Part shown: positions 5,673 through 32,185 of the stretch, one piece after another
Layout of the letters: the number at the start of each line of letters is the position of its first letter
How positions within the stretch are numbered: position 1 is the stretch's first letter
From: an uncultured Desulfosoma sp.
GTDB lineage: Bacteria; Desulfobacterota; Syntrophobacteria; Syntrophobacterales; DSM-9756
Reading direction: 5' to 3'
DNA: 64,000 bases
Assembly (NCBI GenBank): GCA_937960435.1
Contig: CALGPN010000009.1
Location: 1-64,000, forward strand
Notes under the pieces: generated by a model
What the model was told of the DNA's origin: nothing
Database searches by the model: none
The model's input: the letters and a program-made list of their open reading frames with translations, nothing else
Position numbers and translations under genes: made by a program

Positions 5673-5688
5673 TGGCACTTTTTGTGCA
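5673..5688 (+). promoter_or_regulatory. Putative sigma-54 (-24/-12) promoter
   Basis: The sequence CTGGCACTTTTTGTGCA has the -24 GG at 5674-5675 and the -12 GC at 5686-5687, with the required 10 bases between. The -24 half is perfect (TGGCAC); the -12 half is GTGC instead of TTGC. The predicted transcription start is near 5699. The first good gene downstream is the degenerate receiver at 5880. Confidence 0.7.
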
Positions 5689-5879: not shown

Positions 5880-6419
5880 ATGAAAGGGTGCGTGCTGGTG
5901 GTGGCTTCGGAAGAAGGCTTTCGGGCAGGCCTCACGGCGCGGCTCCGCCAAGACGGGTATCGCGTCGTGGATGCTGCGGATCAAGTGGAAGCCATGGGGC
6001 TTTTGGACGCCCAACCTGTGGACGCCGTGGTGTGGCACTGCGTGGCCAACGACGGGTGGGGCTGGATCCTTTTGGATCATGTGCGCGGGCTTCCTCAGCC
6101 GCCCCCGGTGATCCTTTTGGTCCCCAAAGGTCAGGTGGAGCACGGTATCGAAGGGATGCGGCGCGGCGCCTTCGATGACCTGCTCATCCCTTTTGCCTGG
6201 GAGAGTCTCAAAGAAAAGGTGGCGGCGGCGCTGCGGGCCGCGCGCACGGCCGCCAAGAAGAAGAAAACGGGGAGGCCGAGCGGGGAAGAGGCCGCGGCGG
6301 CGGAAGCTAGTGCCGAAGCCGCTTCCCCGGAAAAAGGGCGGCGTTCCCCGGAATCGTCGCGGTCCAAGGCGGTCAAAAAAGGACGATCAAAAGCAAAAGA
6401 GGGCGAAAGCGAGGCCTAG
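5880..6419 (+). CDS. Degenerate receiver-domain protein with Lys/Ala/Glu-rich tail
   Basis: The protein has 179 residues. Residues 1-120 have the response-regulator receiver pattern (MKGCVLVVASEEGFRAGLTARLRQDGY ... MRRGAFDDLLIPFAWESL). The phospho-accepting Asp position is His53 (DAVVWHC), and the conserved switch Lys before Pro is Ile, so it cannot be phosphorylated normally. Residues about 120-179 are low-complexity and basic/acidic (AAKKKKTGRPS, KAVKKGRSKAKEGE), resembling histone H1- or AlgP-like DNA-binding tails. The ATG at 5880 follows TTGGGGATC. It lies behind a sigma-54 promoter. I infer a pseudo-receiver that may bind DNA or a protein partner; the function is unknown. Confidence 0.75.
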   Translation: MKGCVLVVASEEGFRAGLTARLRQDGYRVVDAADQVEAMGLLDAQPVDAVVWHCVANDGWGWILLDHVRGLPQPPPVILLVPKGQVEHGIEGMRRGAFDDLLIPFAWESLKEKVAAALRAARTAAKKKKTGRPSGEEAAAAEASAEAASPEKGRRSPESSRSKAVKKGRSKAKEGESEA

Positions 6420-10337: not shown

Positions 10338-10519
10338 GGGCTTCGGCCTTGCCCCATGGAGCATGAACACCGCGACGCCCGAGGTCGCTTTCCCGAGTTG
10401 GCGGGCCTCTGCGAGGGAAAAAGAGCGGGCCGAAGGGCTGTGGGCCGAAGGGCGGAGGCCGTGAAGGCGTCTTTTGATTTGTGGGTAAAGATCCCCGAGG
10501 GCATGGAGGAGTCCCGGCT

Positions 10520-12001
10520 TTGAGTTTACGAACTCGGATTTTTGTGCTTTTGGCGGCCCTTGTCGGGGTCAACTGCGCTGGCGCTCTCATCACCATCTGG
10601 TACACGTCGCACACCCTGGAGGTGTCCGAGTCCATGGTGAAGCGGGACGTGCAAGCGCTTCTTGCCGCGGAAAAACTGGCCAGCGCCCTCGTCATGCAGA
10701 AAGGCTACGTGACCTACTATTATCTGACCGGAGACGACCAATGGCTGGGGCGGCTCAAGGAACACCAGTTGGCCTTCCATTATTGGCTGGGGACGGCCGG
10801 GGAGCGTTCTCGCATGGAGGAAGGCCGGCGCATTCTGGAGGAAATCGCCAAGGCCTATGAGCGTTTCGAGGCCGGTCGGGATCATGTGATCCAACTTTAC
10901 CGTGAGGGGCGAAAGGAAGAGGGGGCTCGGGAGCATTGGACCGTGCGGGATCAGTTTCATCAAATCTACGCTCTGACCGAGAAATTCAAAAGCCTTCATG
11001 AAGCCCAGATTCAACGCAATCAGGAACTTTACGCCCGCAGGACCAAGAACCTCACGCGGCTGGCGTGGGTGGCCTTGCCCGTGGCCTTGCTCGCGGGGGT
11101 GATGTTGGCCATGGTCCTTTGGGGCCAAATCCTGGAACCCATCCGCCGCTTGGCCTTCTACCAGGAGACGGGACGCGCCGCGGGGCACGGGGAGGACACC
11201 AAGGACGAGGTGCAAGCGTTGAGCCGGCGGGTGCACAGTTTGCTGGAAGACGTGGACCGGGCGCACGAGGAGCTTGAAGAGAGCCGCGAGCACCTGATCC
11301 AATCGGAGAAGCTGGCCATGGTGGGAAAGCTTGCCGCCGGAGTGGCGCACAGCATCCGAAATCCTTTGACCTCCGTTAAAATGCGGCTCTTTTCCCTAGA
11401 AAGAAGCCTCAGCCTTGACCCGACCCAGCGGGAAGACTTCGAAGTGATCGCCGAGGAAATCGCCCATATCGACACCATCGTCGGCAATTTTTTAGAGTTC
11501 AGTCGTCCTCCGAAGCTGAAAATGCAACAGGTGAGCCTTTCCGATGTGGTGGACATGACTTTGCAGCTTCTGCGCCATCGGTTGGATTCCTACGGGGTGC
11601 GCATCGAGGTGGAGCGCAAGGGCCGGCTTCCCAAGACGTCCCTAGATCCGGACCAGATGAAGGAGGTCCTGGTGAATTTGATCTTGAACGCCTGTGAGGC
11701 CATGAGCGAAGGGGGGCAGATCCGGATTGTGGAGGAATCGGGGATGATGGGCGATCAGGGCTTCGTGGTTCTGGTGCGCATCAAGGACAACGGGCCGGGC
11801 ATCCCCGACGAGATCAAGGACAAGATTTTCGAACCCTTCTTCAGCACCAAGGAGGAGGGGTCGGGTTTGGGGTTGGCCATCGCCAAAAGAATCCTTCAGG
11901 ATCACAAAGGGTGGATTCACGTCCATTCCAAACCCGGCCAGGGGACGACTTTTGTCGTGGGCTTGCCGTGTGAGGAGCGGGGGCTGTGGCTGAGATCCTG
12001 A
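10520..12001 (+). CDS. NtrB-like membrane histidine kinase
   Basis: The kinase has 493 residues. TM1 (about 6-28) and TM2 (about 176-198) flank a mostly helical periplasmic region of about 145 residues that resembles a four-helix-bundle sensor. A linker coiled coil, a HisKA domain with His277 (GVAHSIRNPL) and a HATPase domain (NLILNACEA, DNGPGIPDEI, EEGSGLGLAI) follow. TTG at 10520 is chosen because GGAGGA precedes it by about 9 nt; the frame is open to a GTG at 10481 without such a site. It overlaps the next gene by 16 bases, so the two form a co-translated two-component pair. Confidence 0.9.
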   Translation: MSLRTRIFVLLAALVGVNCAGALITIWYTSHTLEVSESMVKRDVQALLAAEKLASALVMQKGYVTYYYLTGDDQWLGRLKEHQLAFHYWLGTAGERSRMEEGRRILEEIAKAYERFEAGRDHVIQLYREGRKEEGAREHWTVRDQFHQIYALTEKFKSLHEAQIQRNQELYARRTKNLTRLAWVALPVALLAGVMLAMVLWGQILEPIRRLAFYQETGRAAGHGEDTKDEVQALSRRVHSLLEDVDRAHEELEESREHLIQSEKLAMVGKLAAGVAHSIRNPLTSVKMRLFSLERSLSLDPTQREDFEVIAEEIAHIDTIVGNFLEFSRPPKLKMQQVSLSDVVDMTLQLLRHRLDSYGVRIEVERKGRLPKTSLDPDQMKEVLVNLILNACEAMSEGGQIRIVEESGMMGDQGFVVLVRIKDNGPGIPDEIKDKIFEPFFSTKEEGSGLGLAIAKRILQDHKGWIHVHSKPGQGTTFVVGLPCEERGLWLRS

Positions 12002-13428
12002 TCGTGGATGACGATCCCCAGCTGCGCCAAAGTTTCGGGAAAATCTTGCGCAGCGAAGGCCATTCGGTGCGCATGGCGGCATCGGGCGAAGCGGGCCTGG
12101 CGGCCGTCAAGGAACATGTCCCGGACCTTGTGGTGCTGGATGTGCGCCTTCCGGGGATGTCCGGGTTGGAGACGTTCAAGGCCATGAAAGAAGTGGACGC
12201 CAAGCTGCCGGTGATCATCATGACGGCCTACGGCACCACGGAAACGGCCATCGAAGCGACCAAAATGGGCGCCTTCGACTATGTGCTCAAGCCCTTCGAC
12301 ATCCCGTCCTTGCTCGATTTGGTCTCCCAAGCGCTCAAAGCGGGCCGCTTCATGCGCAACAAAGTGGCCCTGGACGCCCCGCCGACGTCCCCTCAAGAAG
12401 ACGCCCTCATCGGCCGAAGCCGGGCCATGCAGGAAGTCTACAAAGCCATCGGTCGGGTGGCGGGGACCGACGCCACGGTGCTCATCCGAGGGGAATCGGG
12501 CACAGGCAAAGAGCTGGTGGCTCGGGCCATCTACCAGCACAGCCATCGGGCTCAGGGACCGTTCTTGGTGATCAACTGCGTGGCCATTCCCGAGACGCTT
12601 CTGGAAAGCGAGCTCTTCGGCTACGAGAAGGGGGCGTTTACGGGGGCGGTGAGCCGCCGGGTGGGGAAGGTGGAGCAGGCCCACCACGGCACCCTGTTTT
12701 TGGATGAAATCGGGGATATGCCGGTGAGCATCCAAGCCAAGCTGCTCAGGCTCCTGCAGGAACGAAGCATCGAACGTTTGGGCGGGCGGCGCCCCATTCC
12801 CGTGGATGTGCGCATCCTTGCGGCCACCAATCGTAACCTGGAGGAGGCGGTGGCCGAAGGGCGTTTTCGGGACGATTTGTTCTATCGGTTGAACGTGGTC
12901 ACCCTCACCCTTCCCCCTTTGCGGGAGCGCCGGGAAGACATCCCCCTGTTGGCGGAATACTTTCTCGAACGCTGCGCCGCGGAGTTGGGCATTCCCAATC
13001 CGGGGATGACGGAAGATGCCCTCCAGTGTCTCATGGCCATGGATTGGCCGGGAAACGTGCGGGAACTGGCCAACGTCCTCCGCAAGGCCCTGATCTTTAA
13101 CCGGGGCATTCCTCTGGAGCGCGCCGACGTGCAGAGGGCCGTCGGCGAGGGCCCCGGCGGTGCCGTGCCGGCCCGAGGTGCGGAGGATCTGGCCGAAGCG
13201 GCCTCTGTGCTGGACCAATGGATCCTCGAAAACTTGGGCCGCGGGGAGTCGGAGAGACTCTTCGATACCCTGGTGGACGATTTCAGTGCACGGGTTATTC
13301 GGGCCGCGTTGGAGATCACCAAAGGCAACCGGACCCACGCGGCCAAGCTGCTGGGCATCTCGCGACCGACACTGCTGGCGCGCATGGAAAAGTACGGCAT
13401 TCGGGTGGAAGCCACCGTGGCGACGTGA
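11986..13428 (+). CDS. NtrC-family sigma-54 response regulator
   Basis: The 480-residue regulator has three domains. The receiver (1-120) carries phospho-acceptor Asp52 (VVLDVRLPGMSG). The AAA+ domain (about 140-375) has GESGTGKE, GAFTGA, FLDEIGDMP and the FRDDLFYRLNVV region, all canonical. The Fis-type HTH is at about 435-475 (RAALEITKGNRTHAAKLLGISRPTLLARM). GTG at 11986 lies within the end of the kinase gene, behind a GGAG. It should activate sigma-54 promoters when phosphorylated by the overlapping kinase. Candidate targets are the four -24/-12 promoters in this window, but the sequence does not show which. Confidence 0.95.
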   Translation: MAEILIVDDDPQLRQSFGKILRSEGHSVRMAASGEAGLAAVKEHVPDLVVLDVRLPGMSGLETFKAMKEVDAKLPVIIMTAYGTTETAIEATKMGAFDYVLKPFDIPSLLDLVSQALKAGRFMRNKVALDAPPTSPQEDALIGRSRAMQEVYKAIGRVAGTDATVLIRGESGTGKELVARAIYQHSHRAQGPFLVINCVAIPETLLESELFGYEKGAFTGAVSRRVGKVEQAHHGTLFLDEIGDMPVSIQAKLLRLLQERSIERLGGRRPIPVDVRILAATNRNLEEAVAEGRFRDDLFYRLNVVTLTLPPLRERREDIPLLAEYFLERCAAELGIPNPGMTEDALQCLMAMDWPGNVRELANVLRKALIFNRGIPLERADVQRAVGEGPGGAVPARGAEDLAEAASVLDQWILENLGRGESERLFDTLVDDFSARVIRAALEITKGNRTHAAKLLGISRPTLLARMEKYGIRVEATVAT

Positions 13429-13505: not shown

Positions 13506-15854
13506 CTACGAACAAAAGCTTCTTAAGGCGCGTCCCGGGGGGCGGGGACGCCACGCGGCGCGCAGAGTCGCTTCCAAGTCTTCCAATCGGTAGGGTTTGG
13601 CGATGACGGCCGAAAACCCGAAAGTGTGCGGCTTCGCCATGACGGGGTCGTTGGAGTAACCGCTGGAGGCGATGGCACAGACCTCCGGGTCCAAGGCCCG
13701 GATTTTCTTGATGACTTCCCGTCCCCCCACCCCTCCGGGAACGGTCAAATCCAAGATGACGGCATCAAAAGGGCGCCCGGCCGCCAGAGCTTCTTCGTAT
13801 CGGCGCAGCGCTTCCATCCCGTCGTGGGCCTCTTCGCTTTCAAAGCCCAGTTGTTCCAGCATGGCCGAAAGGACTTCGCGGACGATGGGATCGTCGTCCA
13901 TCACGAGCAAGCGTCCTGATCCCGTCAGAGGCGTTCGATCCTCCGCGGCCCATGGATCGGCCCTTTCCGCCTCCGAGGCCGGAAGATAAAAGATCACTTC
14001 GGTGCCCTTGCCCGGCGTAGACCGAACGGTGATGTGGCCGTCATGTCTTTTGACGATGGAATAGGCGGTGGGAAGGCCCAAACCGCTGCCCTCTTTCTTT
14101 GTGGTGAAGTATGGATCGAAGACGGCATCCAGATGCTCTTTGGGAATCCCCACGCCCTGATCCCGCACGGCGACGCACACGTACCGGCCGGGCCGCACGG
14201 GGAGATCCGGGCTTTCGTCCAGGCAAACGTTTTTAGCCGTCACCGTGACGAGGCCCCCATGGGGCATGGCCTGGTGCGCATTGATGACGAGATTCTGGAT
14301 CACCTGGCTGATCTGGGCGGCATCGTAGTCCACAAGCCAGAGATCTTCCTGGAAATGGAATTGGTACCGGGAAGAGGTTCCCCGCAAGGAGAACTCGGTG
14401 CAATCCCGGATGAGATCCTGCAGGGAGCCGGTTTTTTTGATGGGGGCTCCCCCTTTGGCAAAGGTGAGCAGCTGGCGGGTGAGTTCCTGGGCCCGCAGGC
14501 ACGCTTTTTCCACGTGATCCAGACGGTCGCCCAGCGGGGCACCGGTTTTGGCGGCATGCTTGACCAAGGAGATGTGGCCCAGGATGCCCGTGAGGATGTT
14601 GTTGAAATCGTGCGCGATGCCTCCGGCGAGAAGGCCCAGGGATTCCAACTTTTGGGCCCTGAGCCGTTCCTGTTCCGCCACTTTTCTTTCGGTAATGTCC
14701 TGGACGAAGGTCCAGATGGAATCCGGCGTTCCGTCGGGACTTCGGTGAAGGTACATGCGCACTTCCACATCGAGAAGGGAGCCGTCTTTGCGGATGAGCT
14801 GCTTTTCGAATTTGTCGGAAAAGCCGCGTTCCATGAGCATCTTGCGCATGGCTTTGGTCACGGCGTCGAAACGCTGCGTGGGGGTCATATCGCGGCAGGC
14901 GACCCCGATGATTTCCTGAGGGTCTTCATAGCCCAGCATGGCGGCGAAAGGCGGGTTGCATTCGAGGATGACGCCGCGGAAATCCGTTCGCACATATCCG
15001 TCCCGGCTCCTTTCGTAGAGTTCCCGATAGCGCCGTTCCGATTCGGACAGCCGAGCCTGGGCTTCCTGACGTCGGCGCAGCTCTTCCTGAAGTCGGGCGT
15101 TGGCCTCACGAAGTTCGGCCGTTTTGTCGGCCACCTCTTTTTCCAAAAGCCTTGTGGCTTGGTCCAGCAAATCGTCCGAGCCTTTTCTCTGGACCATGGC
15201 CCCAACGAGATGGGCGGCGGTCTTGAGGGCGTCGATTTCCACCGCGTTCCACTGCCGCGGGGTGAGGCAATCGTCGAAGCCGATGAACCCCCACAGCGCA
15301 TCGTGGACAAAGATGGGGGCGGCCACCAGAGAGAGGATCCCTTGGGCCTCGAGCACAGGACGTTCCGAAGGGGGAAATTCCTCAATCAAGCCGTAGACGG
15401 GTTCGCCTTGGAGAAAGAGTTCCACCCATCGGGAAAAGCCGCCGGCATGAATGGGAAAATTTTCCAGATCGGGGTTCCCTTTTTGCGACGGGATTCCTGC
15501 CGCCGTCCACTCGTAGCGTTGGCTGGTGAGCAACGTGCCGTCCGGGGCTTCGTGATTTTCGAAAACGTAGACCCGGCTGACCCGGGCGGCTTCGCCCAGG
15601 CGTCCCAACACGGTTTCGATGGGCACTTCCGTTCGGGAATGGATCAGAAAATATTCGGCGGCGTAGGCCAGAGCTTGAAGGATGGTATCTCGGGATGCCA
15701 GGGCCTGTTCGAAGGCGTTTCGGGCCGTGATGCCGTAGCGTGCCTCCGGAGGCCGCATCGTGTCGTCCAGGTTCCGAAGCCCCGACGTCTGTTCCCAAGG
15801 ATAGGCGTTGTCGTGCCCTTGCCGTGCAGGCTGCTCCGCCGGCTGTCTCTTCAT
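13506..15854 (-). CDS. Hybrid histidine kinase (GAF-PAS-HisKA-HATPase-REC)
   Basis: The 782-residue protein is soluble, with no membrane segment. A GAF-type domain (about 55-215) contains DALWGFIGFDDC, and a coiled coil (about 225-270) leads to a PAS domain (about 275-400). The HisKA domain carries His415 (GGIAHDFNNIL), the HATPase domain has NLVINAHQA, DQGVGIP and GSGLGLPTAYSI, and a C-terminal receiver (about 660-775) ends the protein. The receiver has the phospho-acceptor pattern DAVILDLTVPGG. The ATG at 15854 follows GGAGGGGGAG. It converges on the NtrC-like gene with 77 bases between stops. Its partner is unknown; the fused receiver suggests a phosphorelay or self-control. Confidence 0.93.
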   Translation of the reverse strand: MKRQPAEQPARQGHDNAYPWEQTSGLRNLDDTMRPPEARYGITARNAFEQALASRDTILQALAYAAEYFLIHSRTEVPIETVLGRLGEAARVSRVYVFENHEAPDGTLLTSQRYEWTAAGIPSQKGNPDLENFPIHAGGFSRWVELFLQGEPVYGLIEEFPPSERPVLEAQGILSLVAAPIFVHDALWGFIGFDDCLTPRQWNAVEIDALKTAAHLVGAMVQRKGSDDLLDQATRLLEKEVADKTAELREANARLQEELRRRQEAQARLSESERRYRELYERSRDGYVRTDFRGVILECNPPFAAMLGYEDPQEIIGVACRDMTPTQRFDAVTKAMRKMLMERGFSDKFEKQLIRKDGSLLDVEVRMYLHRSPDGTPDSIWTFVQDITERKVAEQERLRAQKLESLGLLAGGIAHDFNNILTGILGHISLVKHAAKTGAPLGDRLDHVEKACLRAQELTRQLLTFAKGGAPIKKTGSLQDLIRDCTEFSLRGTSSRYQFHFQEDLWLVDYDAAQISQVIQNLVINAHQAMPHGGLVTVTAKNVCLDESPDLPVRPGRYVCVAVRDQGVGIPKEHLDAVFDPYFTTKKEGSGLGLPTAYSIVKRHDGHITVRSTPGKGTEVIFYLPASEAERADPWAAEDRTPLTGSGRLLVMDDDPIVREVLSAMLEQLGFESEEAHDGMEALRRYEEALAAGRPFDAVILDLTVPGGVGGREVIKKIRALDPEVCAIASSGYSNDPVMAKPHTFGFSAVIAKPYRLEDLEATLRAAWRPRPPGRALRSFCS

Positions 15855-15937
15855 TCGCTCCCCCTCCTCATCCCCTTCGCCGCGCCCATGCCGTAGGGCA
15901 TAAGACCGTCATCGTCCTCGAGGCGGCGCCCGAGACA

Positions 15938-16028
15938 TGACCTCCAAATGAGGTCAAACTCATTGTTTTGTCAACATCCTCTTGACAACTCGGCTCAAGA
16001 ACCTCAGGCAGTGTCAGATTTTTTGACA
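15938..16028. promoter_or_regulatory. Three perfect inverted repeats in helical phase
   Basis: Three palindromes lie in the divergent gap. TGACCTC-N5-GAGGTCA spans 15938-15956, TTGTCAA-N7-TTGACAA spans 15968-15988 and TGTCA-N7-TGACA spans 16012-16028. Their centres (15947, 15978, 16020) are 31 and 42 bp apart, close to three and four helical turns, so all would face the same side of DNA. They share the TGTCA/TGACA core. They lie about 150-240 bp upstream of the start predicted from the -24/-12 element at 16153 and so could be enhancers, or operators for the divergent hybrid kinase. Confidence 0.65.
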
Positions 16029-16152
16029 ATCCGTAAAACCCGGCGCCGCCGGACGAGTTCCTTTTGGAGAACGGGGCGCATGGTTTCAGCGAAGATTCAT
16101 CCGCCGCGGCCCGGCTCCTGCAACGCCATCGGATTCTCGAGGGAAATCCTCA

Positions 16153-16168
16153 TGGTGCGAAATTTGCC
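16153..16168 (+). promoter_or_regulatory. Putative sigma-54 promoter
   Basis: TGGTGCGAAATTTGCC has GG at 16154-16155 and GC at 16166-16167 with 10 bases between. The -12 half TTGC is perfect; the -24 half is TGGTGCG against TGGCACG. The predicted start is near 16179, ahead of the gene at 16225. Confidence 0.6.
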
Positions 16169-16224
16169 TTGAATGAAAAACGAGCGGTTAAGGGTTCTAA
16201 GGGTTCTCAACAAGGAGGCGGGAG

Positions 16225-16707
16225 ATGATGACGACGGATGATTTGAAAGCGTGCGGTTTCTTCTTGGTTTTCGGCGATGCGGAATTGGAAAAGATCGGTC
16301 AGGTCACTGAGAAGAAAAGTTACAAAAAGGACGATGTGGTCTACAGGAACGGAGATCCCGCCCAGAAGTTTTTTATCGTCGGGAAGGGTTTGGTCAGCCT
16401 CAGGGAATTTCAACCCGGGGATACTGTGGGCATCGCCTTCGAAACGCGGGGGCCTGGGGAGCTTTTTGGGGTGGCTTCCTTGATGCCTCCCAAAAGTTAC
16501 ACGCTCACGGCCGTGTGCCAGGAGGACACGGAACTCTATGAGGTGAACGTGAAGGGCTTGGAAGAACTGATCCAATGGGCCCCTTCCATCGGCTACATCC
16601 TCATGAAAGAGGTGGCCCGAATTTACTTCGATCGATATCGCCTGTGCAAGCGCCAGTTGTACCAAATGGTCAAGACCCCGACGTTGATTACGGCGCTACC
16701 CGGCTAA
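16225..16707 (+). CDS. Stand-alone cyclic-nucleotide-binding (Crp/Fnr sensor) domain protein
   Basis: The 160-residue product is a cNMP-binding beta-roll (about 12-125, YRNGDPAQKFFIVGKGLVSLREFQPG ... GPGELFGVASLMPPKSYTLTAVCQEDTELYEV) followed by a C-terminal helical part. The helix-turn-helix of Crp/Fnr regulators is absent, so it is unlikely to bind DNA itself. AGGAGG precedes the ATG by 6 nt. It lies alone behind a predicted sigma-54 promoter, upstream of a Cache kinase. It might act as a ligand-sensing partner of the neighbouring kinases; that is inference. Confidence 0.85.
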   Translation: MMTTDDLKACGFFLVFGDAELEKIGQVTEKKSYKKDDVVYRNGDPAQKFFIVGKGLVSLREFQPGDTVGIAFETRGPGELFGVASLMPPKSYTLTAVCQEDTELYEVNVKGLEELIQWAPSIGYILMKEVARIYFDRYRLCKRQLYQMVKTPTLITALPG

Positions 16708-16889: not shown

Positions 16890-18563
16890 ATGATGGACGA
16901 CAAGTACGGAAACCTGCGCCTCAAGCTCCTGGCTTCCATGTTGAGTTTTTCCTTGGTGCCGCTGTTTATCGTCGGCCTGAGCCTTTACACCCAGTTTGAT
17001 CGAGCCTACACGACGAGGGTGCAGGAAAATCTTCGGGCTCTTGTGGAAGACCGTCGTCACGCCCTGGATCTCTTTTTCGAGGAGCGCATTTCTCAGCTCT
17101 ATACCGTGGCCCACTCCCACAGTTTCGAACAGCTGTGCGCGCCCTCCAAGCTGCAGGAGGTTTTCGACCTCATGCAGCGCCGCTCCAAGTACTATGTGGA
17201 CCTTGGGGTCATCGACGAAAACGGGGACCACGTGGCCTATGCCGGCCCCTACGCCCTCAAAGGAGTCAACTATCGAAATGCCGAATGGTTCCAGTCCGTG
17301 ATGCTTCACGGCGTTTATGTGAGCGACGTATTTTTGGGGGTTCGGCAGTTTCCCCATTTCATCATCGCGGTACTCCGTCGTGAGGGCGAACGGTACTGGA
17401 TCCTTCGGGCCACCATCAATACCGATCTTTTTGAGTCCATGGTCAAGGCGGCTCAGGCGGGAGAGTTCGGCGACGCTTTCTTGGTCAACGAGAAGAATGT
17501 CTTGCAGACATCGTCGCGTTTCGTCGGCCGTCCCATGGAGCCGCCCGGCATTCCCGCCCTGCCCCGTTTCCAAGGCTCGCGGCTCATGACCCAAAGCATC
17601 GGCCCGCGGACGATGCTCGTGGGGGCCGTGTGGTTGCGCAGCGTGCCGTGGATGTTGGTGGTCATGGAAGACCCCCAGGAAGAGTTCCTGCCGGTGCTGC
17701 AAACGCGATCTTTGGCTCTGATCCTTTTGGCGGCCGGCGTCGGCGTCGTCGTCCTCGGAGCCGTCTTTGTCGTCAATCTCATGATCGCCCAGCTTCGTGA
17801 AACGGATCGTCAGAAGGCCCTTCTGGACGCCGACCTGATGCAGACAAGCAAAATGGCCGCTTTGGGGAGGTTGGCGGCGGGCATCGCCCACGAAATCAAC
17901 AACCCCTTGGCCGTGATTCAGGAAAAAGCCGGCTGGATTCAGGATCTTTTGGAAGAGGAAGACGTTCAGAGCAGCCAAAATTTCAAGGAATTTGAAGCCG
18001 CCGTGACCAAGATCCAGCAGCATGTGGATCGTGCCCGCAACGTCACCCATCGGCTGCTCGGCTTCGCTCGTCGCATGGAACCGGTGCAGCATCCCGTGAA
18101 CATGAACAAGCTGGTGGAAGAGACCTTGACGTTCTTGGAAAACGAGGCGCGCCATCGCAACATCGAAATCACGAGGGAACTGGGAGACAATCTTCCCGAG
18201 GTCCTGAGCGACGGCTCGCAGATTCAGCAGGTTCTCTTGAATGTGATCAACAACGCCATCGACGCTGTGGAAAAGGACGGCCGGGTCCATATCAGGACCC
18301 TCTACGATAAGGATCTCCAGCAGGTGCTGGTGGAAATCAGCGACACGGGGCCGGGGATTCCCTCAGAAATTCTCGATAAAATCTTCGACCCTTTTTTCAC
18401 GACCAAAAAATTGGGCAGCGGCACGGGACTCGGTTTGAGCATCTGCCACAGCATCGTGACCAAATTGGGGGGGCGCATCGAAGCCCGTAACGGTCCTAAG
18501 GGGGGTGCCGTCTTCGTGGTGGCCATTCCCGTGCAACACCATATGTCCGTTTCGGCAGGATGA
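16890..18563 (+). CDS. Cache-sensor membrane histidine kinase (copy A)
   Basis: The 557-residue protein has TM1 (about 11-33), a periplasmic double-Cache sensor (about 34-265) and TM2 (about 270-293). The HisKA domain carries His334 ([17 protein letters not shown]) and the HATPase domain has NVINNAIDAVEK, DTGPGIPSE and [11 protein letters not shown]. Its sensor is clearly related to that of the kinase at 32169 (VDLG-x-DE-G-x-VAYAGP ... WFQ ... VSDVFLG-R-PHFI-AV), and their kinase cores share AGWIQDLL. Cache domains bind small organic ligands outside the cytoplasm. A single-domain receiver follows at 18606. Confidence 0.93.
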   Translation: MMDDKYGNLRLKLLASMLSFSLVPLFIVGLSLYTQFDRAYTTRVQENLRALVEDRRHALDLFFEERISQLYTVAHSHSFEQLCAPSKLQEVFDLMQRRSKYYVDLGVIDENGDHVAYAGPYALKGVNYRNAEWFQSVMLHGVYVSDVFLGVRQFPHFIIAVLRREGERYWILRATINTDLFESMVKAAQAGEFGDAFLVNEKNVLQTSSRFVGRPMEPPGIPALPRFQGSRLMTQSIGPRTMLVGAVWLRSVPWMLVVMEDPQEEFLPVLQTRSLALILLAAGVGVVVLGAVFVVNLMIAQLRETDRQKALLDADLMQTSKMAALGRLAAGIAHEINNPLAVIQEKAGWIQDLLEEEDVQSSQNFKEFEAAVTKIQQHVDRARNVTHRLLGFARRMEPVQHPVNMNKLVEETLTFLENEARHRNIEITRELGDNLPEVLSDGSQIQQVLLNVINNAIDAVEKDGRVHIRTLYDKDLQQVLVEISDTGPGIPSEILDKIFDPFFTTKKLGSGTGLGLSICHSIVTKLGGRIEARNGPKGGAVFVVAIPVQHHMSVSAG

Positions 18564-18605: not shown

Positions 18606-19004
18606 ATGGATCGCCCGCCGTATCGGGTGTTAGTCGTGGATGATGAGCCGGATTTTCTGGAAACTCTCGTGAGGCGTTTGGAGAGGCGCCAGGTGGAGGC
18701 TTTGGGGGTTCCGGGAGGCCGCGAGGCTCTGGAGACGCTCGCGGAGCATTCTTTTGATGTCGTGGTCTTGGACGTCAAGATGCCCGGCATGGACGGCCTG
18801 GAAGTCTTGAAAGCCATCAAGACGCGATGGCCTCTGGTGGAAGTGATTCTGCTCACGGGCCATGCGTCGGTGGAATCGGGTCTGCAGGGCATGGAGTTGG
18901 GAGCCTTCGACTATGTGATGAAACCCTGCAAGCTAGCCGATCTTTTGCCGAAGATCGAACTCGCCTACGAACGCAAATGTCTGCGGGAAAAGGCTTCCCG
19001 ATAG
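18606..19004 (+). CDS. Single-domain response regulator (receiver only)
   Basis: The product is 132 residues of receiver with no output domain. The acidic pocket is VVDDEPD, the phospho-acceptor is Asp56 (VVVLDVKMPGMDG), the Thr switch is in LLTGHAS and the Lys is in YVMKPC. It lies 42 bases after the Cache kinase, which is its likely partner. Very similar receivers lie at 29952, 33977 and 34827. It ends only 7 bases from the stop of the convergent phosphate transporter gene. Confidence 0.93.
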   Translation: MDRPPYRVLVVDDEPDFLETLVRRLERRQVEALGVPGGREALETLAEHSFDVVVLDVKMPGMDGLEVLKAIKTRWPLVEVILLTGHASVESGLQGMELGAFDYVMKPCKLADLLPKIELAYERKCLREKASR

Positions 19005-24499: not shown

Positions 24500-24515
24500 T
24501 GGCATGGAAGGTGCT
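24500..24515 (+). promoter_or_regulatory. Putative sigma-54 promoter of the activator/PpsA-like operon
   Basis: TTGGCATGGAAGGTGCT has GG at 24501-24502 and GC at 24513-24514, with exactly 10 bases between. The -24 half TGGCATG is one base from consensus; the -12 half is GTGC. The predicted start near 24526 would give a leader of about 53 nt before the ATG at 24579. Confidence 0.55.
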
Positions 24516-24578: not shown

Positions 24579-27197
24579 ATGAGGTTGAAGTGGTTTTATG
24601 AAGAATGGCCGGGTTCCGGGGGCGGCGTGTCCTTCCGGGCTTTGCGTATCCGCACGAAATTGTGGCTCACCTTGGTGCCCACGGTGCTCACCATCTTGAT
24701 CGTCATGGGCTATGTGAGCCACTGGTTTTCCAGCCGGTTTCTCCAGGAGGCCGTCCGGCGCACGGTGCTGCTCCAGACCCTGGCCGTTGCCCACGAATAT
24801 GAAATGTTCATGGATCGGTGCCGAGAAGATTTGTTCTGGGTCTCGCAAGGGGACTTTACAGAAGAACGCTTTCGGGACGTTTGGGCCAAGTTCAAGGCGG
24901 CCCGGGGTTGGGGCTACGCGGAGCTCGGCTTTGTAGAGAACAACGGCGGCAACGGCATGGTGTTGGCCCTATCGGGCGAAGGGGTGCAGAGCGTGGTGTT
25001 CGAACCGGGCACGTCCCTGTGGGACGGTCTCGATAAGCTTTACGGCTGGGCTCAAGGGCCTCCGGAATCCGATCCCGGCCCGTGGCTCGGTCCTGTGGTG
25101 CACGTAGGGTATCGTTCCGCGGACGGAACGGCTTTTTACGGCAAGGCGACCCATGTGGTGCGCTTCATTACCCGGGTAGGCCCCCGCGACGGGGGATCGC
25201 CCGAAGGATTCGTTTTTCTTTCCGTGGACGCCCGTCGCTGGCGGGATATCCTCTCCCTCTACAACTCTCCGCAATCTCCCCTGTTCGGTTTCGTGCGAAG
25301 CCCCGAACTGCGCTATCTCTATTTCATCGACTCCCAGGGATGGATTGTCTTTCAATCGGAAGACAAGGTGAATTCCGAAAAAGCGCTCAACACGGACACG
25401 GCCCGCTTCGGGCTTTCCGGGACGTACGGCAGGCCGGGTCTCCCTTTCGCTTTTCGTCCCAACGTGGATCACGGGGATTTTTGGGACATTGTCGGGGACA
25501 TTCGAGAAATGAAATCCGGAGTCATGGTCCGTTACATTCCCCCGGCCCCTGAAAGTAAGGTGGATCGCGTCTACATCGGATATGCTCCCATTTTCTTTGG
25601 GAGAAGCTCCGACGGGCAGGGGAAAACCCTTTACGGCGCTGTGGTCTTCGTGGACCGCAGTCGGCTGATCACCATGGCGGGTTATCGTCAGGTAGATGTG
25701 GTTTTCATCATCGGGCTCGTCAGCGCGGTTCTTGTGGCCTTTGTGCTCTGGGGGGTCAGCCGCATCATCACCCGCCCTCTGGTGCACTTGGCCGAGGCGG
25801 TGAACGTCATCCAGGAAACGGGCCGTTTGGAACCCATCGACATTCCGGAAAGGGATCTGGATACCGCGTTTCTCAAAGACGCAGTCAATCGCCTCATCGA
25901 GCGCATCCGGGATCAGATGGCGGCTCTGGAGATGCAGGATCGTCAACTTCGGGAAATGATCATGCGGGAGAAAATTTCCCTTGATGAAGAAAGCGATGTC
26001 CTGCGACTGGATCGAGAAAGTCTTCCCGAACCTTTGGCCCGGCTGGTGGGGCAGTCGGCGGGCATGCAGCGATTTCGGGAGCTTGTGGTGCGGGCCGCTG
26101 CGGTGGAGGCGGATGTGCTCATTGTAGGGGAAACGGGGACGGGCAAGCAGCTTGCCGCCGAAGCCATCCACGCGCTAAGCCGTCGGTCGGCGAAGCCTTT
26201 TGTCGCCATCAACTGCGGCGCTCTGGATGAAAACCTCCTTTTGGACGCTTTGTTCGGTCATGTGAAGGGGGCCTTCTCCGAGGCCAAAAGCGACCGCAAA
26301 GGGGCCTTTTTGGCGGCGGACGGCGGCACCCTTTTCTTGGATGAAATCGGCACGGCTTCGCCCAAGGTGCAGCAGGCGTTGCTTCGCGTGCTGGCCGAGC
26401 GGAAAGTGCGCCCTTTGGGAAGCGACGCGGAGCATTCGGTGGATGTGCGCGTCGTGGCGGCGACAAACGTGGATCTGACGGACTTGGTGCGCCGGGGGCT
26501 TTTTCGGGAAGATCTCTATTACCGAATGAATGTGCTCACCCTGCACACGCCGCCGTTGAGGGACCGGCGTGAGGATATCCCGCTCTTGGCGGCCCATTTC
26601 CTGTCGCAGGCCGGCTCGCGGCTGAACCGTCCCAAGGTGTCCTTGACGCAAGGCGCTCTGGAGGCCCTTTTGGCCTACGACTGGCCGGGGAACGTCCGTG
26701 AGTTGGAAAACCGTCTCACTCGGGCCCTCGCCATGACCAAAGGCTCGCGGATTCACGCTTGCGATTTGGGCCTGGATCATGACTTAGGGAACCACGGGGG
26801 TGCGGACGCCGGCGGCGAAGCGGGACCGGTGGAAGGGGTCGGCTGGAGTGCAAGCAACGGGAGCACGGACAGGGGTGGGGAACCTCAGCGCGGGACGGAA
26901 AAGGCCGGGACCCAAAACGGAATGAGCGGCACGAGGCAAACGGCGCCTGTGGAACTCAACGACCGGCAACGAAAGGCGCTCAAGATCCTTCTCCAGCGCG
27001 GCCACATCACGCGGGCCGAGTATCAGGAGGCGGTCGGGGGCGGCGTGGCACCCCGTACGGCCCTCAACGACCTCCAGGACATGGTGGCCAAAGGGGTGCT
27101 CAAGAAAACAGGCCGAGGTCCGGCGACGCGTTATAAGGTCATGAGACGCGAGCACCTCCAGGCTTATCTGACTCACGAACCCGGAGGATCTTCATGA
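24579..27197 (+). CDS. Membrane Cache-HAMP AAA+ regulator of the sigma-54 activator type, GAFSEA loop, winged-helix end
   Basis: The protein has 872 residues. TM1 (about 27-48) and TM2 (about 372-395) flank a large Cache-like sensor, and a HAMP-type linker and coiled coil follow to about 480. The AAA+ domain (about 490-730) has GETGTGKQ, FLDEIGTASP and FREDLYYRMNVL. The sigma-54-contacting loop reads GAFSEA (564-569) instead of GAFTGA. The Fis helix-turn-helix is missing; a low-complexity linker leads to a winged-helix domain (LNDRQRKALKILLQRGHITRAEYQEAVGGGVAPRTALNDLQDMVAKGVLKK). The ATG at 24579 follows GGGGAGA. It overlaps the next gene by ATGA. It may use a different partner from sigma-54. 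Confidence 0.9.
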   Translation: MRLKWFYEEWPGSGGGVSFRALRIRTKLWLTLVPTVLTILIVMGYVSHWFSSRFLQEAVRRTVLLQTLAVAHEYEMFMDRCREDLFWVSQGDFTEERFRDVWAKFKAARGWGYAELGFVENNGGNGMVLALSGEGVQSVVFEPGTSLWDGLDKLYGWAQGPPESDPGPWLGPVVHVGYRSADGTAFYGKATHVVRFITRVGPRDGGSPEGFVFLSVDARRWRDILSLYNSPQSPLFGFVRSPELRYLYFIDSQGWIVFQSEDKVNSEKALNTDTARFGLSGTYGRPGLPFAFRPNVDHGDFWDIVGDIREMKSGVMVRYIPPAPESKVDRVYIGYAPIFFGRSSDGQGKTLYGAVVFVDRSRLITMAGYRQVDVVFIIGLVSAVLVAFVLWGVSRIITRPLVHLAEAVNVIQETGRLEPIDIPERDLDTAFLKDAVNRLIERIRDQMAALEMQDRQLREMIMREKISLDEESDVLRLDRESLPEPLARLVGQSAGMQRFRELVVRAAAVEADVLIVGETGTGKQLAAEAIHALSRRSAKPFVAINCGALDENLLLDALFGHVKGAFSEAKSDRKGAFLAADGGTLFLDEIGTASPKVQQALLRVLAERKVRPLGSDAEHSVDVRVVAATNVDLTDLVRRGLFREDLYYRMNVLTLHTPPLRDRREDIPLLAAHFLSQAGSRLNRPKVSLTQGALEALLAYDWPGNVRELENRLTRALAMTKGSRIHACDLGLDHDLGNHGGADAGGEAGPVEGVGWSASNGSTDRGGEPQRGTEKAGTQNGMSGTRQTAPVELNDRQRKALKILLQRGHITRAEYQEAVGGGVAPRTALNDLQDMVAKGVLKKTGRGPATRYKVMRREHLQAYLTHEPGGSS

Positions 27198-29815
27198 TCG
27201 GCTTATGGCGAGAGCTCACGAGGCGTTTCTCAAAAAAACCGCGCCGGCCCCCTGAAGAAATCGCCGATCTTTTTCGGTTCAAATACAGCCATTTTAAAGA
27301 TCTGCTCCAGTCCAACACGGACCTGGCGCAAATCATCGCCGACATTACGGAACGGCTTCGGGGACACGACATTTTCGGCATGGGTTATGTGAGGGCCAAA
27401 GCGACCATGGCCATGTCCCATGCCGCCAGGATGGTTCGGGCGTTGAACGCCTTGTCTTTTCATCGCTATGCCCCTTTGGATGAGGCTCTGGAGAGGATTC
27501 AGAAACATATCCGTGAGGAACTGGAAGCGGAAACGGGAAAGGTCGTCCCGTGTCCCCATTTGGTGATCCCCTTGGAGAAGGTGGATCGACGGATGGTGGA
27601 CTGGGTCGGGGGGAAAAGCGCGAACCTGGGGGAAGTGGCGGGCCGAGTGGGTCTGAGGGTGCCGCACGGTTTTGCCGTCACGACGCGGGCGTTCGAGCTT
27701 TTTTTGGACCAGGGAGACCTCCGCGACCGGATTCGAAAGTACAAGACGGAAACCGACATGACGTCTCCGGCGGCGGTGCAGGAATTCAGCGAAACCGTGC
27801 AGCATCTGATCCTGCGCACGCCCGTGCCCCGCGAGATCCAGGAAGCGCTGGACGGAGCCTTCCTGGACTTGGAGGCCAAAGCCGCCCAAGGGGCCGATTG
27901 CGGCCGTCCCGTGAGAGTGGCCATGCGCAGCAGCGCCATCGGAGAGGACAGCGATCTGTCCTTTGCGGGCCAATATGTCAGCGTGCTCAATGTGGAACGC
28001 GACCGACTCGCCGAAACCTACCGGCTCGTGGTGGCGAGCCTCTACACGCCCCGGGCCGTTTCGTACCGGTATCAAAAAGGCATCCGAGATGAGGACACGG
28101 CCATGGGGGTGACGGTATTGGCCATGATCGACTCGGTGGCCGCTGGGGTGGCCTATTCCACGGATCCCTTGCGCCCCAACCCGGACGAGCTTCTGGTGAC
28201 CGGCATTTGGGGCTTGGGTCCCTACGCGGTGGAAGGCGTGGTGACGCCGGACATGATCCGCGTGTCCAAGAAGCCGGGGTTGGCCATCCTGGAAAAGACA
28301 ATTTCGGTGAAACCGGTGCAACTCATTCTCAACCCGGACGGGGGGTTGCGGGAGATTCCCGTGCCCGAGCCCGATCGGGCGCGCTCATGTCTCGACGATG
28401 AGCATGTTCGGCGGCTCGCCGAAGCGGTGACGCGGTTGGAAGAGCATTTCGGATGCCCTCAGGATGTGGAGTGGGCCCTGGACGGCCGTGGGGAGCTCTA
28501 TATTCTTCAGAGTCGGCCTTTGCAAATCCTCGGGGCGACGGACTCCGAGCTCCTTGCGGAGCCGGCTCGAGAGGGGGAGGAACCGGGGGTGATCGCCCGC
28601 GGGGGGAGCACCGCCGTTCCCGGCGTTGGGTGTGGACCGGTTTATGTCGTGCGAAAAGACGAAGACCTGGCCGACTTTCCCCAAGGGGGCGTGCTGGTGG
28701 CCGCCCAGTCCTCACCGTCCTACGTGGTCGTCATGGCACGGGCCGCGGCCATCGTCACGGAAGCGGGCAGCGTCACGGGCCACATGGCCTCGGTGGCCCG
28801 GGAATTCGGGGTTCCGACCCTCCTGGGGGTCCCGGGGGTGCTTGCCGCGCTCAAGCGCGGCGACCTGATCACCGTGGATGCTTCGCGGCGTCGCCTTTAC
28901 GAAGGCTGCCGTGAGGACCTGATGCAGGAAGCCGGAACACGAAAGCCTTTCATGAAGGGGACCCCTGTCTACGACACGCTGAGCCGCGTGGCCGCCTGGA
29001 TTGTTCCCTTGAATCTGGTGGATCCCAAAGACGCGTCCTTTCGGCCGGAAGGATGCCGCACGCTCCACGATGTGATGCGGTTTGCCCATGAAATGTCCTA
29101 CCACGAGATGTTCCGACTGAGCGACAGCGTGGCCGACGGCGAAGGCTGGGCTGTGAAGCTCGATGTGCGCCTGCCCATCGATCTCTATCTCATCGATTTG
29201 GGCGGCGGTCTGGTTCCCGAGGCGACCCATCGGTCCCGTGTCGGTCTGGACGATTTGGCCTGCATCCCCCTGCGGGCGCTTCTGGACGGCATGACGCACG
29301 AAGCGCTCCGGGAAGAAGGACCCCGTCCCGTCAATCTGAGGGGCTTCTTTTCGGTGATGGCCGAACAGATGCTCGCGCCGCCCCGTTTGGGTGTCGAAAG
29401 GTTCGGCGACAAGAGCTATGCCATCATTTCGGATAAATACATGAATTTCAGCTCCCGGGTGGGCTACCATTACAGCATCGTGGACAGCTACTGCGGCGCG
29501 GATCCTCACAAGAACTATGTGACGTTTTCGTTTATGGGGGGAGCTGCCGACGAGGTCCGGCGAAACCGGCGGGTGCGCGCCATCGGCCGCATTCTGGAAG
29601 CCATGGATTTTCGTGTGGACGTGGTGGGCGACCGGGTGACCGCCCGATGCCAAAAATACCCGTGTGAAAAGACGGCGCAACACTTGGAAAGGCTCGGCCG
29701 GCTGCTTCAATTCACGCGCCAGTTGGACATGTTCATGGACAGCGAGCGGTCCGTGGAGGACTTGGCCCGTCGATTCCTCGAAGAGCGCTACTCCCTGACG
29801 ACCGAAGAGGTCTGA
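27194..29815 (+). CDS. PEP-synthase-like ATP-grasp/phosphohistidine protein without PEP barrel (copy A)
   Basis: The protein has 873 residues. An N-terminal helical domain (about 25-110, FRFKYSHFKDLLQSN ... FGMGYVRAKA) precedes a PPDK/PpsA-type ATP-grasp domain (about 130-455) with GGKSANLGEV, AMRSSAIGEDSDLSFAGQY and EWALDGRGELYILQSRP. The swivelling domain (about 485-580) carries the phosphate-accepting His530 (GSVTGHMASVAREFGVP). The C-terminal 290 residues are not the PEP/pyruvate TIM barrel; they form a domain that I do not recognise, shared with the protein at 37607. The protein should phosphorylate its own histidine from ATP, but the acceptor is unknown. GGAGG and an ATGA overlap tie it to the membrane regulator. 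Confidence 0.9.
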   Translation: MIGLWRELTRRFSKKPRRPPEEIADLFRFKYSHFKDLLQSNTDLAQIIADITERLRGHDIFGMGYVRAKATMAMSHAARMVRALNALSFHRYAPLDEALERIQKHIREELEAETGKVVPCPHLVIPLEKVDRRMVDWVGGKSANLGEVAGRVGLRVPHGFAVTTRAFELFLDQGDLRDRIRKYKTETDMTSPAAVQEFSETVQHLILRTPVPREIQEALDGAFLDLEAKAAQGADCGRPVRVAMRSSAIGEDSDLSFAGQYVSVLNVERDRLAETYRLVVASLYTPRAVSYRYQKGIRDEDTAMGVTVLAMIDSVAAGVAYSTDPLRPNPDELLVTGIWGLGPYAVEGVVTPDMIRVSKKPGLAILEKTISVKPVQLILNPDGGLREIPVPEPDRARSCLDDEHVRRLAEAVTRLEEHFGCPQDVEWALDGRGELYILQSRPLQILGATDSELLAEPAREGEEPGVIARGGSTAVPGVGCGPVYVVRKDEDLADFPQGGVLVAAQSSPSYVVVMARAAAIVTEAGSVTGHMASVAREFGVPTLLGVPGVLAALKRGDLITVDASRRRLYEGCREDLMQEAGTRKPFMKGTPVYDTLSRVAAWIVPLNLVDPKDASFRPEGCRTLHDVMRFAHEMSYHEMFRLSDSVADGEGWAVKLDVRLPIDLYLIDLGGGLVPEATHRSRVGLDDLACIPLRALLDGMTHEALREEGPRPVNLRGFFSVMAEQMLAPPRLGVERFGDKSYAIISDKYMNFSSRVGYHYSIVDSYCGADPHKNYVTFSFMGGAADEVRRNRRVRAIGRILEAMDFRVDVVGDRVTARCQKYPCEKTAQHLERLGRLLQFTRQLDMFMDSERSVEDLARRFLEERYSLTTEEV

Positions 29816-31292: not shown

Positions 31293-31461
31293 GAGACGTG
31301 AGAGCTCCGCGTCACATCGTCCAGCTGTGCCGTCGACCGTGCGTGGGCCCGCGAGGTTTCCTCGGCGCGGGCAGGGTCGCACACCCATCTCTCATCAAGG
31401 AGCAAAAGACGCGCCGTTTCTCATAGATTTGGAAACTCTTCCGGGTATATGGCGAGGGGCT

Positions 31462-31494
31462 GTCCAAGAGGACCGTTTTGTCCTTCCGTGGGAC
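31462..31494. promoter_or_regulatory. Two adjacent GTCC/GGAC inverted repeats
   Basis: GTCC-N4-GGAC (31462-31473) is followed by GTCC-N6-GGGAC (31480-31494). Half-sites alternate over 33 bases, about 170-205 bp upstream of the start predicted from the sigma-54 promoter at 31640. They are candidate activator sites, but the arms are short. Confidence 0.35.
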
Positions 31495-31586
31495 CCCGCT
31501 GACGTGGGTTTCTGGGTTTGACGAAATGTTAAAGATCCTGACAGTCATTGGCGGCGCCGTGCCGCGCCACGAACTCGGCCTGCCTC

Positions 31587-31614
31587 GGACGCCTCAGAGT
31601 TTAGGCGTCCTTTT
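31587..31614 (+). terminator. GC-rich hairpin followed by TTTT
   Basis: GGACGCCT (31587-31594) pairs perfectly with AGGCGTCC (31603-31610) over an 8-nt loop, followed by four T residues. No plus-strand gene lies just upstream, so it may insulate the sigma-54 promoter from read-through or act as an operator at about -79 to -56. Confidence 0.45.
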
Positions 31615-31639
31615 CGGCCCTGTGCGTCGTGGAACCCTC

Positions 31640-31655
31640 TGGCATGTTCCTTGCC
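31640..31655 (+). promoter_or_regulatory. Putative sigma-54 promoter of the REC/kinase/TauE unit
   Basis: CTGGCATGTTCCTTGCC has GG at 31641-31642 and GC at 31653-31654 with 10 bases between. It matches YTGGCAYG-N4-TTGC throughout and is the best sigma-54 match in the window. The predicted start is near 31666, 70 bases before the first gene at 31736. Confidence 0.75.
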
Positions 31656-31735: not shown

Positions 31736-32185
31736 ATGGACCGACCTTTCCGAATCCTCGTGACCGATCGCAATCGTCACGTACGGGCCTTCTTGAGGAG
31801 AGAACTGGCCCGGGAGGGCTACGAGGTCTTGGAAGCCAAGGACTGTCGAGAGCTTCGGAAAATTCTGCGGTCACCGCTGGCGGTGGATTTGCTGGTGTTC
31901 GATCCGGATATTGCTTTTGAAAACCACCGGAACATGATCCAGACTTTGAGGGAGCGGTATCCTTCGTTGCTGGTGGTGCTGCATAGCTTTTGGGAAGAGC
32001 CCGCCGAGTGCCCCGAGGTGCAGGCGATGGTGCCCAAGACGGGCTCACCCAAAGAGCTTAAAACGGTGGTGGCTCGGCTTCTTGCGGAAGGCGCCTCATG
32101 GGAGGCTTCCGGGCGGCTCTCTGTGAACGATTCGTGGAACGGTCCCCCGACACCGGGAAGGAATTCGGATGATCACGGCGGATGA
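31736..32185 (+). CDS. Divergent receiver-domain protein
   Basis: The 149-residue protein begins FRILVTDRNRHVRAFLRRELAREGYEVLEAKDCREL, a receiver-like start. Asp56 (LLVFDPDIAF) fits the phospho-acceptor position, and MVPKTGSPKEL supplies a Lys near the expected place. The acidic pocket is weak (TDRN instead of DDE) and the region after Asp56 is unlike other receivers here, so activity is uncertain. The C-terminal 30 residues look disordered. It overlaps the Cache kinase by 17 bases and is the first gene behind the sigma-54 promoter at 31640. Confidence 0.75.
   Translation: MDRPFRILVTDRNRHVRAFLRRELAREGYEVLEAKDCRELRKILRSPLAVDLLVFDPDIAFENHRNMIQTLRERYPSLLVVLHSFWEEPAECPEVQAMVPKTGSPKELKTVVARLLAEGASWEASGRLSVNDSWNGPPTPGRNSDDHGG

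Follow-up and report, generated by a model that had tools for sequence, protein, structure and literature searches.

The 370-bp intergenic region at 15855-16224 lies between two divergent genes, one for a hybrid histidine kinase (13506-15854, minus strand) and one for a stand-alone, 160-amino-acid protein with a cNMP-binding domain (16225-16707, plus strand), and it raises the question of which of its symmetric sequences could serve as a regulatory site. The region is part of a 64-kb stretch of contig 9 of a 3.0-Mb draft genome, referred to here as the window. An earlier note described three perfect palindromes in this region, phased on the DNA helix upstream of a sigma-54 promoter, and proposed that a dimeric protein binds them cooperatively. 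All three palindromes are present: palindrome 1 is TGACCTC-N5-GAGGTCA (15938-15956, center 15947), palindrome 2 is TTGTCAA-N7-TTGACAA (15968-15988, center 15978), and palindrome 3 is TGTCA-N7-TGACA (16012-16028, center 16020). Their centers are 31 and 42 bp apart, as claimed, and a sigma-54-like element, TGGTGCGAAATTTGCC, is found at 16153-16168, where it had been placed. The TGTCA-N7-TGACA core attributed to both palindromes 2 and 3 does not exist in palindrome 2, where the spacer between TGTCA and TGACA is 9 bp; because one reads TGTCA-N9-TGACA and the other TGTCA-N7-TGACA, the two have no single core in common. A search for TGTCA-N7-TGACA returned 16012-16028 as the sole exact match in the whole genome.

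We compared these palindromes with those expected by chance in the same 370 bp. Of 500 dinucleotide shuffles, 1.8% contained at least two perfect inverted repeats whose arms were 7 bp or longer, and palindromes 1 and 2 are therefore mildly unusual as a pair. Inverted repeats whose arms are 5 bp or longer are common (8 observed versus 3.6 expected in the shuffled region), so palindrome 3, with its 5-bp arms, is unremarkable as a palindrome. We estimate the chance that both spacings fall near whole helical turns by coincidence at roughly 8%. Autoregulation of the cNMP gene, with its product acting through the palindromes as a Crp/Fnr regulator, was rejected: in a domain search of the 160-residue protein, PF00027 was the only domain, and no C-terminal HTH was present.

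The cNMP gene has orthologues in the same genus (90% identical in G002 and 75% in G001) and in two Desulfacinum genomes of the Syntrophobacterales (70 to 71%). All close orthologues of the 16225-16707 protein end in a near-invariant C-terminal tail, TP(T/S)(L/I/V)I(T/A)ALPG. Downstream on the plus strand are a histidine kinase gene (16890-18563; dCache-like, HisKA, and HATPase domains), whose order is kept in relatives, and a single-domain receiver gene (18606-19004; PF00072), both possibly in the same operon as the cNMP gene. A nucleotide search with the entire 15855-16224 region found no relatives, and conservation is limited to short elements. Palindrome 1 has at least five mismatches in every relative, and no other perfect copy of it was found anywhere in the genome. 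Palindrome 2 has three and five mismatches in two congeners and six in Desulfacinum; only its left arm, TTGTCAAC, is kept, and only within the genus, where it lies 42 to 43 bp from TGTCAG in three genomes. Neither Desulfacinum nor the flanks of other sites of the 27-bp element described below contain the arm, so it is no more than an accessory site of the genus, if it does not belong to the divergent kinase gene instead. Palindrome 3 has one or two mismatches in all relatives compared and lies within a longer element. Lack of conservation in close relatives, which the earlier note named as evidence against its proposal, was thus found for palindromes 1 and 2 as palindromes and not for palindrome 3. 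Judged by sequence comparison, the three phased palindromes are the wrong unit, and only palindrome 3 is inside a widely conserved element.

Chance may account for palindromes 1 and 2, or they may be part of the divergent kinase gene. If they serve that gene (13506-15854), TTGACA on the minus strand (15974-15969) would be its −35 element, with palindrome 1 acting as an operator that covers its −10 region. In line with this idea, TTGTCAAC is found in the three genomes whose cNMP gene has this kinase gene as its divergent neighbor and is absent in Desulfacinum, where the neighbor is another gene. However, the implied −10 (TCATTT) is poor, a promoter scan finds no sigma-70-type site, and palindrome 1 is not conserved. 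We regard this role as unlikely; it is compatible with the activator-site model developed below, and both can hold.

The longer element around palindrome 3 is a 27-mer, GTGTCAGATTTTTTGACAATCCGTAAA, at 16011-16037 on the plus strand, conserved upstream of the cNMP orthologues; the block in the upstream region of G002 reads CTGTCAGCTTCTTTTACAGTCCGTCAA. The consensus of 62 sites is C-TG(T/C)CAG-N-(A/T)-TTTTTTACA-NNN-(T/C)GTAAA, which has TTTACA-N3-TGTAAA as its inner dyad, together with an outer half-site that begins 20 bp 5′ of the right half of the dyad. In the window, the outer half-site is TGTCAG (16012-16017) and the dyad halves are TTGACA (16023-16028) and CGTAAA (16032-16037), all on the plus strand. 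Palindrome 3 joins the outer half-site to the left dyad half, and its symmetry depends on a G seldom seen at that position. The axis of this palindrome is not the conserved one, since it blends the outer half-site with the inner dyad; the center of the conserved dyad is near 16030, about 10 bp downstream of that axis.

Allowing up to three mismatches, we found 37 matches to the 27-mer in 60 relatives, compared with 3 for a reversed control pattern, and the matches looked at in the relatives' stretches are intergenic according to automatic gene calls. The 27-mer recurs across the phylum, in dozens of related species, and Desulfacinum has the 27-mer alone, without palindromes 1 and 2. A weight matrix was built from 20 sites, none from this genome, although these had been selected with a pattern partly derived from this window. 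Its only strong matches in the window are 16011-16037 (35.4 bits) and 31518-31544 (34.1 bits), with a next best window score of 5.4 bits and a best control of 7.3 bits. A looser pattern used earlier gave four further matches in this genome, two of them intragenic and one without a convincing promoter; only 31527-31543 passed the stricter 27-mer. A second half-site at −43, sought at all sites, was not found.

The 27-mer is closely associated with sigma-54 promoters. The −24/−12 element TGGTGCGAAATTTGCC is on the plus strand, its GG-N10-GC is kept in four relatives, and the relatives' upstream regions retain the form TGGT(G/C)C-N5-TTGCC. The distance between 27-mer and promoter in the five cNMP orthologues is about 141 to 142 bp (here), 99, 99, 99, and 163 bp. 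Among all sites, 57 of 62 have a sigma-54-like promoter within 330 bp, either side counted, where about 9% would be expected (score of at least 12.4 within 330 bp; 4.6% per random 330-bp stretch). The distances cluster at 100 to 102 and 118 to 125 bp, about two helical turns apart. Rayleigh tests with a period of 10.5 gave p values of 2e-4 and 1e-6 for all sites and 0.24 and 0.03 for unique distances; because of the latter values, we claim only the two clusters and not helical quantization. The portion of the earlier note that looked toward the −24/−12 element holds up in this form: a conserved predicted activator site precedes a sigma-54-type promoter that is itself conserved, and the distance between the two would allow DNA looping.

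Several other sequence features were seen. Between the promoter and the cNMP start codon, TAAGGGTTC is perfectly duplicated in tandem (16189-16206). In one related family (L075, L076, and L077; G044 and G040), the 27-mer is 100 to 102 bp before TGGCAC-N5-TTTCA, in which the sigma-54-like −12 part is without the usual GC (TTTCA, not TTGC). Elsewhere in the window, a sigma-54-like sequence, TGGCACTTTTTGTGCA, is found at 5673-5688 in front of a receiver gene (5880-6419) that has no 27-mer in its vicinity, and another, TGGCATGGAAGGTGCT, at 24500 precedes a gene (24579-27197) for a protein with a sigma-54 interaction AAA+ domain, in which Pfam finds no HTH; this gene is followed by one for a PPDK_N/PEP-utilizers protein (27194-29815).

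The proposed binder of the 27-mer is an NtrC-type response regulator encoded at 11986-13428 on the plus strand (REC, Sigma54_activat, and HTH_8), in which a receiver, an AAA+ domain with GAFTGA, and a Fis-type HTH are all present. The gene of its probable partner histidine kinase (10481-12001, plus strand; HisKA and HATPase; start codon uncertain) overlaps the regulator gene and stays beside it in many relatives. In a sequence search, the DNA-binding domain matches 1ojl ZraR, Fis, and 1ntc NtrC. Assignment of the regulator as NtrC, PrsR, AtoC, or ZraR was rejected on NCBIfam scores of 502.3, 433.3, 493.9, and 410 versus cutoffs of 558.6, 502.6, 714, and 760, respectively; it scores under every curated equivalog cutoff shown, and no curated family names it. 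Its orthologues are sharply separated from paralogues, with full-length matches of at least 63% identity versus up to about 50%, and a search of plasmids returned generic paralogues only. In congener G001 (L079, G001:C9:50000-69999), the cNMP gene, the next kinase gene, and the regulator gene seem broken by stops or fragmentation, and the 27-mer and promoter are still present beside them.

The regulator and the 27-mer co-occur. Across 297 genomes of the phylum, the regulator (E value up to 1e-165) is found in 52, the site (up to one mismatch) in 50, and both in 40, about 9 being expected (Fisher p = 2e-29, kinship ignored); 12 genomes have the regulator without a site at this threshold, and 10 have a site without a detected orthologue. 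Many genomes carry a site no more than about 300 bp past the regulator stop codon, and a promoter on the side of the site away from the regulator gene faces a TauE/TSUP permease, receiver, CBS, or kinase gene.

The two also covary. In the recognition helix, SRPTL is followed by Q in regulators that accompany TGCC outer half-sites and by L, H, or I in those that accompany TGTC; the outer half-site alone changes base. We recorded this as a prediction for 18 further genomes, and in the 17 checked, Q was present in 4 of 4 with TGCC and 0 of 13 with TGTC. Two TGTC genomes outside the prediction list are without Q, and the mixed genome G159 has Q. In total, 11 genomes combine TGCC with Q and 40 combine TGTC with another residue, with one exception each way (G130 and G017), giving p = 1.8e-9 over 53 genomes with kinship ignored. 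In a tree from which the HTH was left out, Q was gained four separate times; a sign test on independent pairs, of which there are too few, was not significant. In an HTH alignment, the covarying position corresponds to Fis residue 89, which we take to be DNA contacting. Computation thus directly shows that the element is conserved, that it is linked to sigma-54 promoters, and that it co-occurs and covaries with the regulator.

These observations bear on whether another NtrC-family regulator of the same cell binds the 27-mer, with the 11986-13428 protein merely sharing its phylogenetic range. These genomes encode many NtrC-type regulators, and a few strong sites are in genomes without a detected orthologue (e.g., G063 and G318). 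However, G063 is 85% complete and belongs to the same genus as the orthologue-bearing G099 and G133, sites directly behind the regulator gene are seen in many families, and the residue and base switched together on four separate occasions; we consider a different binder improbable. Cooperative binding of one dimeric regulator to three equivalent palindromes, as first proposed, draws on the 31- and 42-bp spacings and on the recurring TTGTCAAC-TGTCAG distance within the genus, but it is unsupported and very improbable, given that palindrome 1 differs in sequence and has no counterpart in any relative, no relative retains palindrome 2 in symmetric form, the axis of palindrome 3 differs from that of the conserved dyad, and the 27-mer stands by itself in Desulfacinum.

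We therefore favor the reading that 16011-16037 is an upstream activator site (UAS) of the 11986-13428 regulator and drives sigma-54 transcription of the cNMP gene, which we consider highly probable. The kinase (10481-12001) would phosphorylate the regulator, encoded 2.6 kb from the UAS, and the phosphorylated regulator would bind both the inner dyad, TTTACA-N3-TGTAAA, and, roughly two helical turns from it, the outer TGTCAG half-site. The bound regulator would then oligomerize, the DNA would loop, and sigma-54 RNA polymerase at 16153-16168 would be remodeled, turning on the cNMP gene and probably also the kinase and receiver genes behind it. Binding, oligomerization, looping, phosphorylation, and the direction of the effect are inferred here from the known behavior of the NtrC family. 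Palindromes 1 and 2 would be unnecessary in this model.

The second UAS copy, CTGTCAGGATCTTTAACATTTCGTCAA (31518-31544, minus strand), is conserved in G002, G004, and G007. It lies between two divergent sigma-54-like promoters (31401-31655), an arrangement kept in three relatives. On the plus strand, TGGCATGTTCCTTGCC (31640-31655) is 122 bp from the UAS and precedes an operon that begins with a receiver-like gene at 31736, behind which is a row of kinase, receiver, and TauE genes; its equivalents in G002, G004, and G007 are at 123 to 125 bp. On the minus strand, CGGCGCGTCTTTTGCT (31401-31416) is 128 bp from the UAS and precedes kinase and receiver genes (31292-29952). The same regulator would act on both promoters from this single site, and it probably activates further genes for sensors and stress proteins through sigma-54 promoters.

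By its testable sequence features, the system is a sigma-54/UAS/response-regulator unit, and it would work like one. The NifA upstream activator site is TGT-N10-ACA, and that of PilR is a tandem TGTC. The element described here resembles these in having TGT/ACA and TGTC half-sites upstream of sigma-54 promoters, but it was rejected as a NifA UAS, the 62-site consensus being TGT-N11-ACA, and it is without the tandem array of four TGTC seen for PilR; where examined, the downstream genes are not nif or pilin genes. The regulator shares a Fis-type HTH with LuxO, NtrC, and Fis. Sites of this family typically consist of a dyad with two arms, about 100 bp before the sigma-54 promoter (LuxO: PMC11407668), whereas the site here has, besides TTTACA-N3-TGTAAA, an extra TGTCAG half-site 20 bp away.

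The nearest described systems, likened here by their descriptions, are the D. vulgaris response-regulator regulons (PMC3333781; Kazakov 2015, PMC4641369), especially that of DVU0539/DVU0946. As described there, these are small regulons with NtrC-type response regulators, sigma-54 promoters, and TGT/ACA half-sites, which fall into three motif groups with spacings of 9, 11, or 12 bp, and one site (DVU2956) has three half-sites (PMC3333781, PMC4641369); in the element studied here, the outer TGT and the inner ACA are 11 bp apart. The targets of DVU0539/DVU0946 include universal stress proteins and sulfate-exporter-type transporters (PMC10102598), a likeness drawn from target types alone; they also include lactate genes, none of which were seen near the sites examined here.

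We think it reasonably probable that the regulator represents an unnamed NtrC-type family present in many families of the phylum, with a three-half-site UAS and a core regulon composed largely of signaling and stress proteins (kinases, receivers, cNMP, CBS, and Usp proteins, and TauE permeases), in which the helix position at Fis 89 determines which base is tolerated in the outer half-site and has changed in step with the sites on at least four occasions. If the motif is identical to that of a D. vulgaris regulon, the system would be already partly known in Desulfovibrio and is here extended to new lineages. A guess about phased palindromes is replaced by a specific proposed regulator, site, and target set, and the model is testable in culturable species such as Desulfacinum infernum. 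The linked change of helix residue and site base in four lineages offers a natural experiment on DNA site selection by the Fis-type HTH of sigma-54 activators. If the model is true, one two-component system would stand above several others in many relatives of the sulfate reducers.
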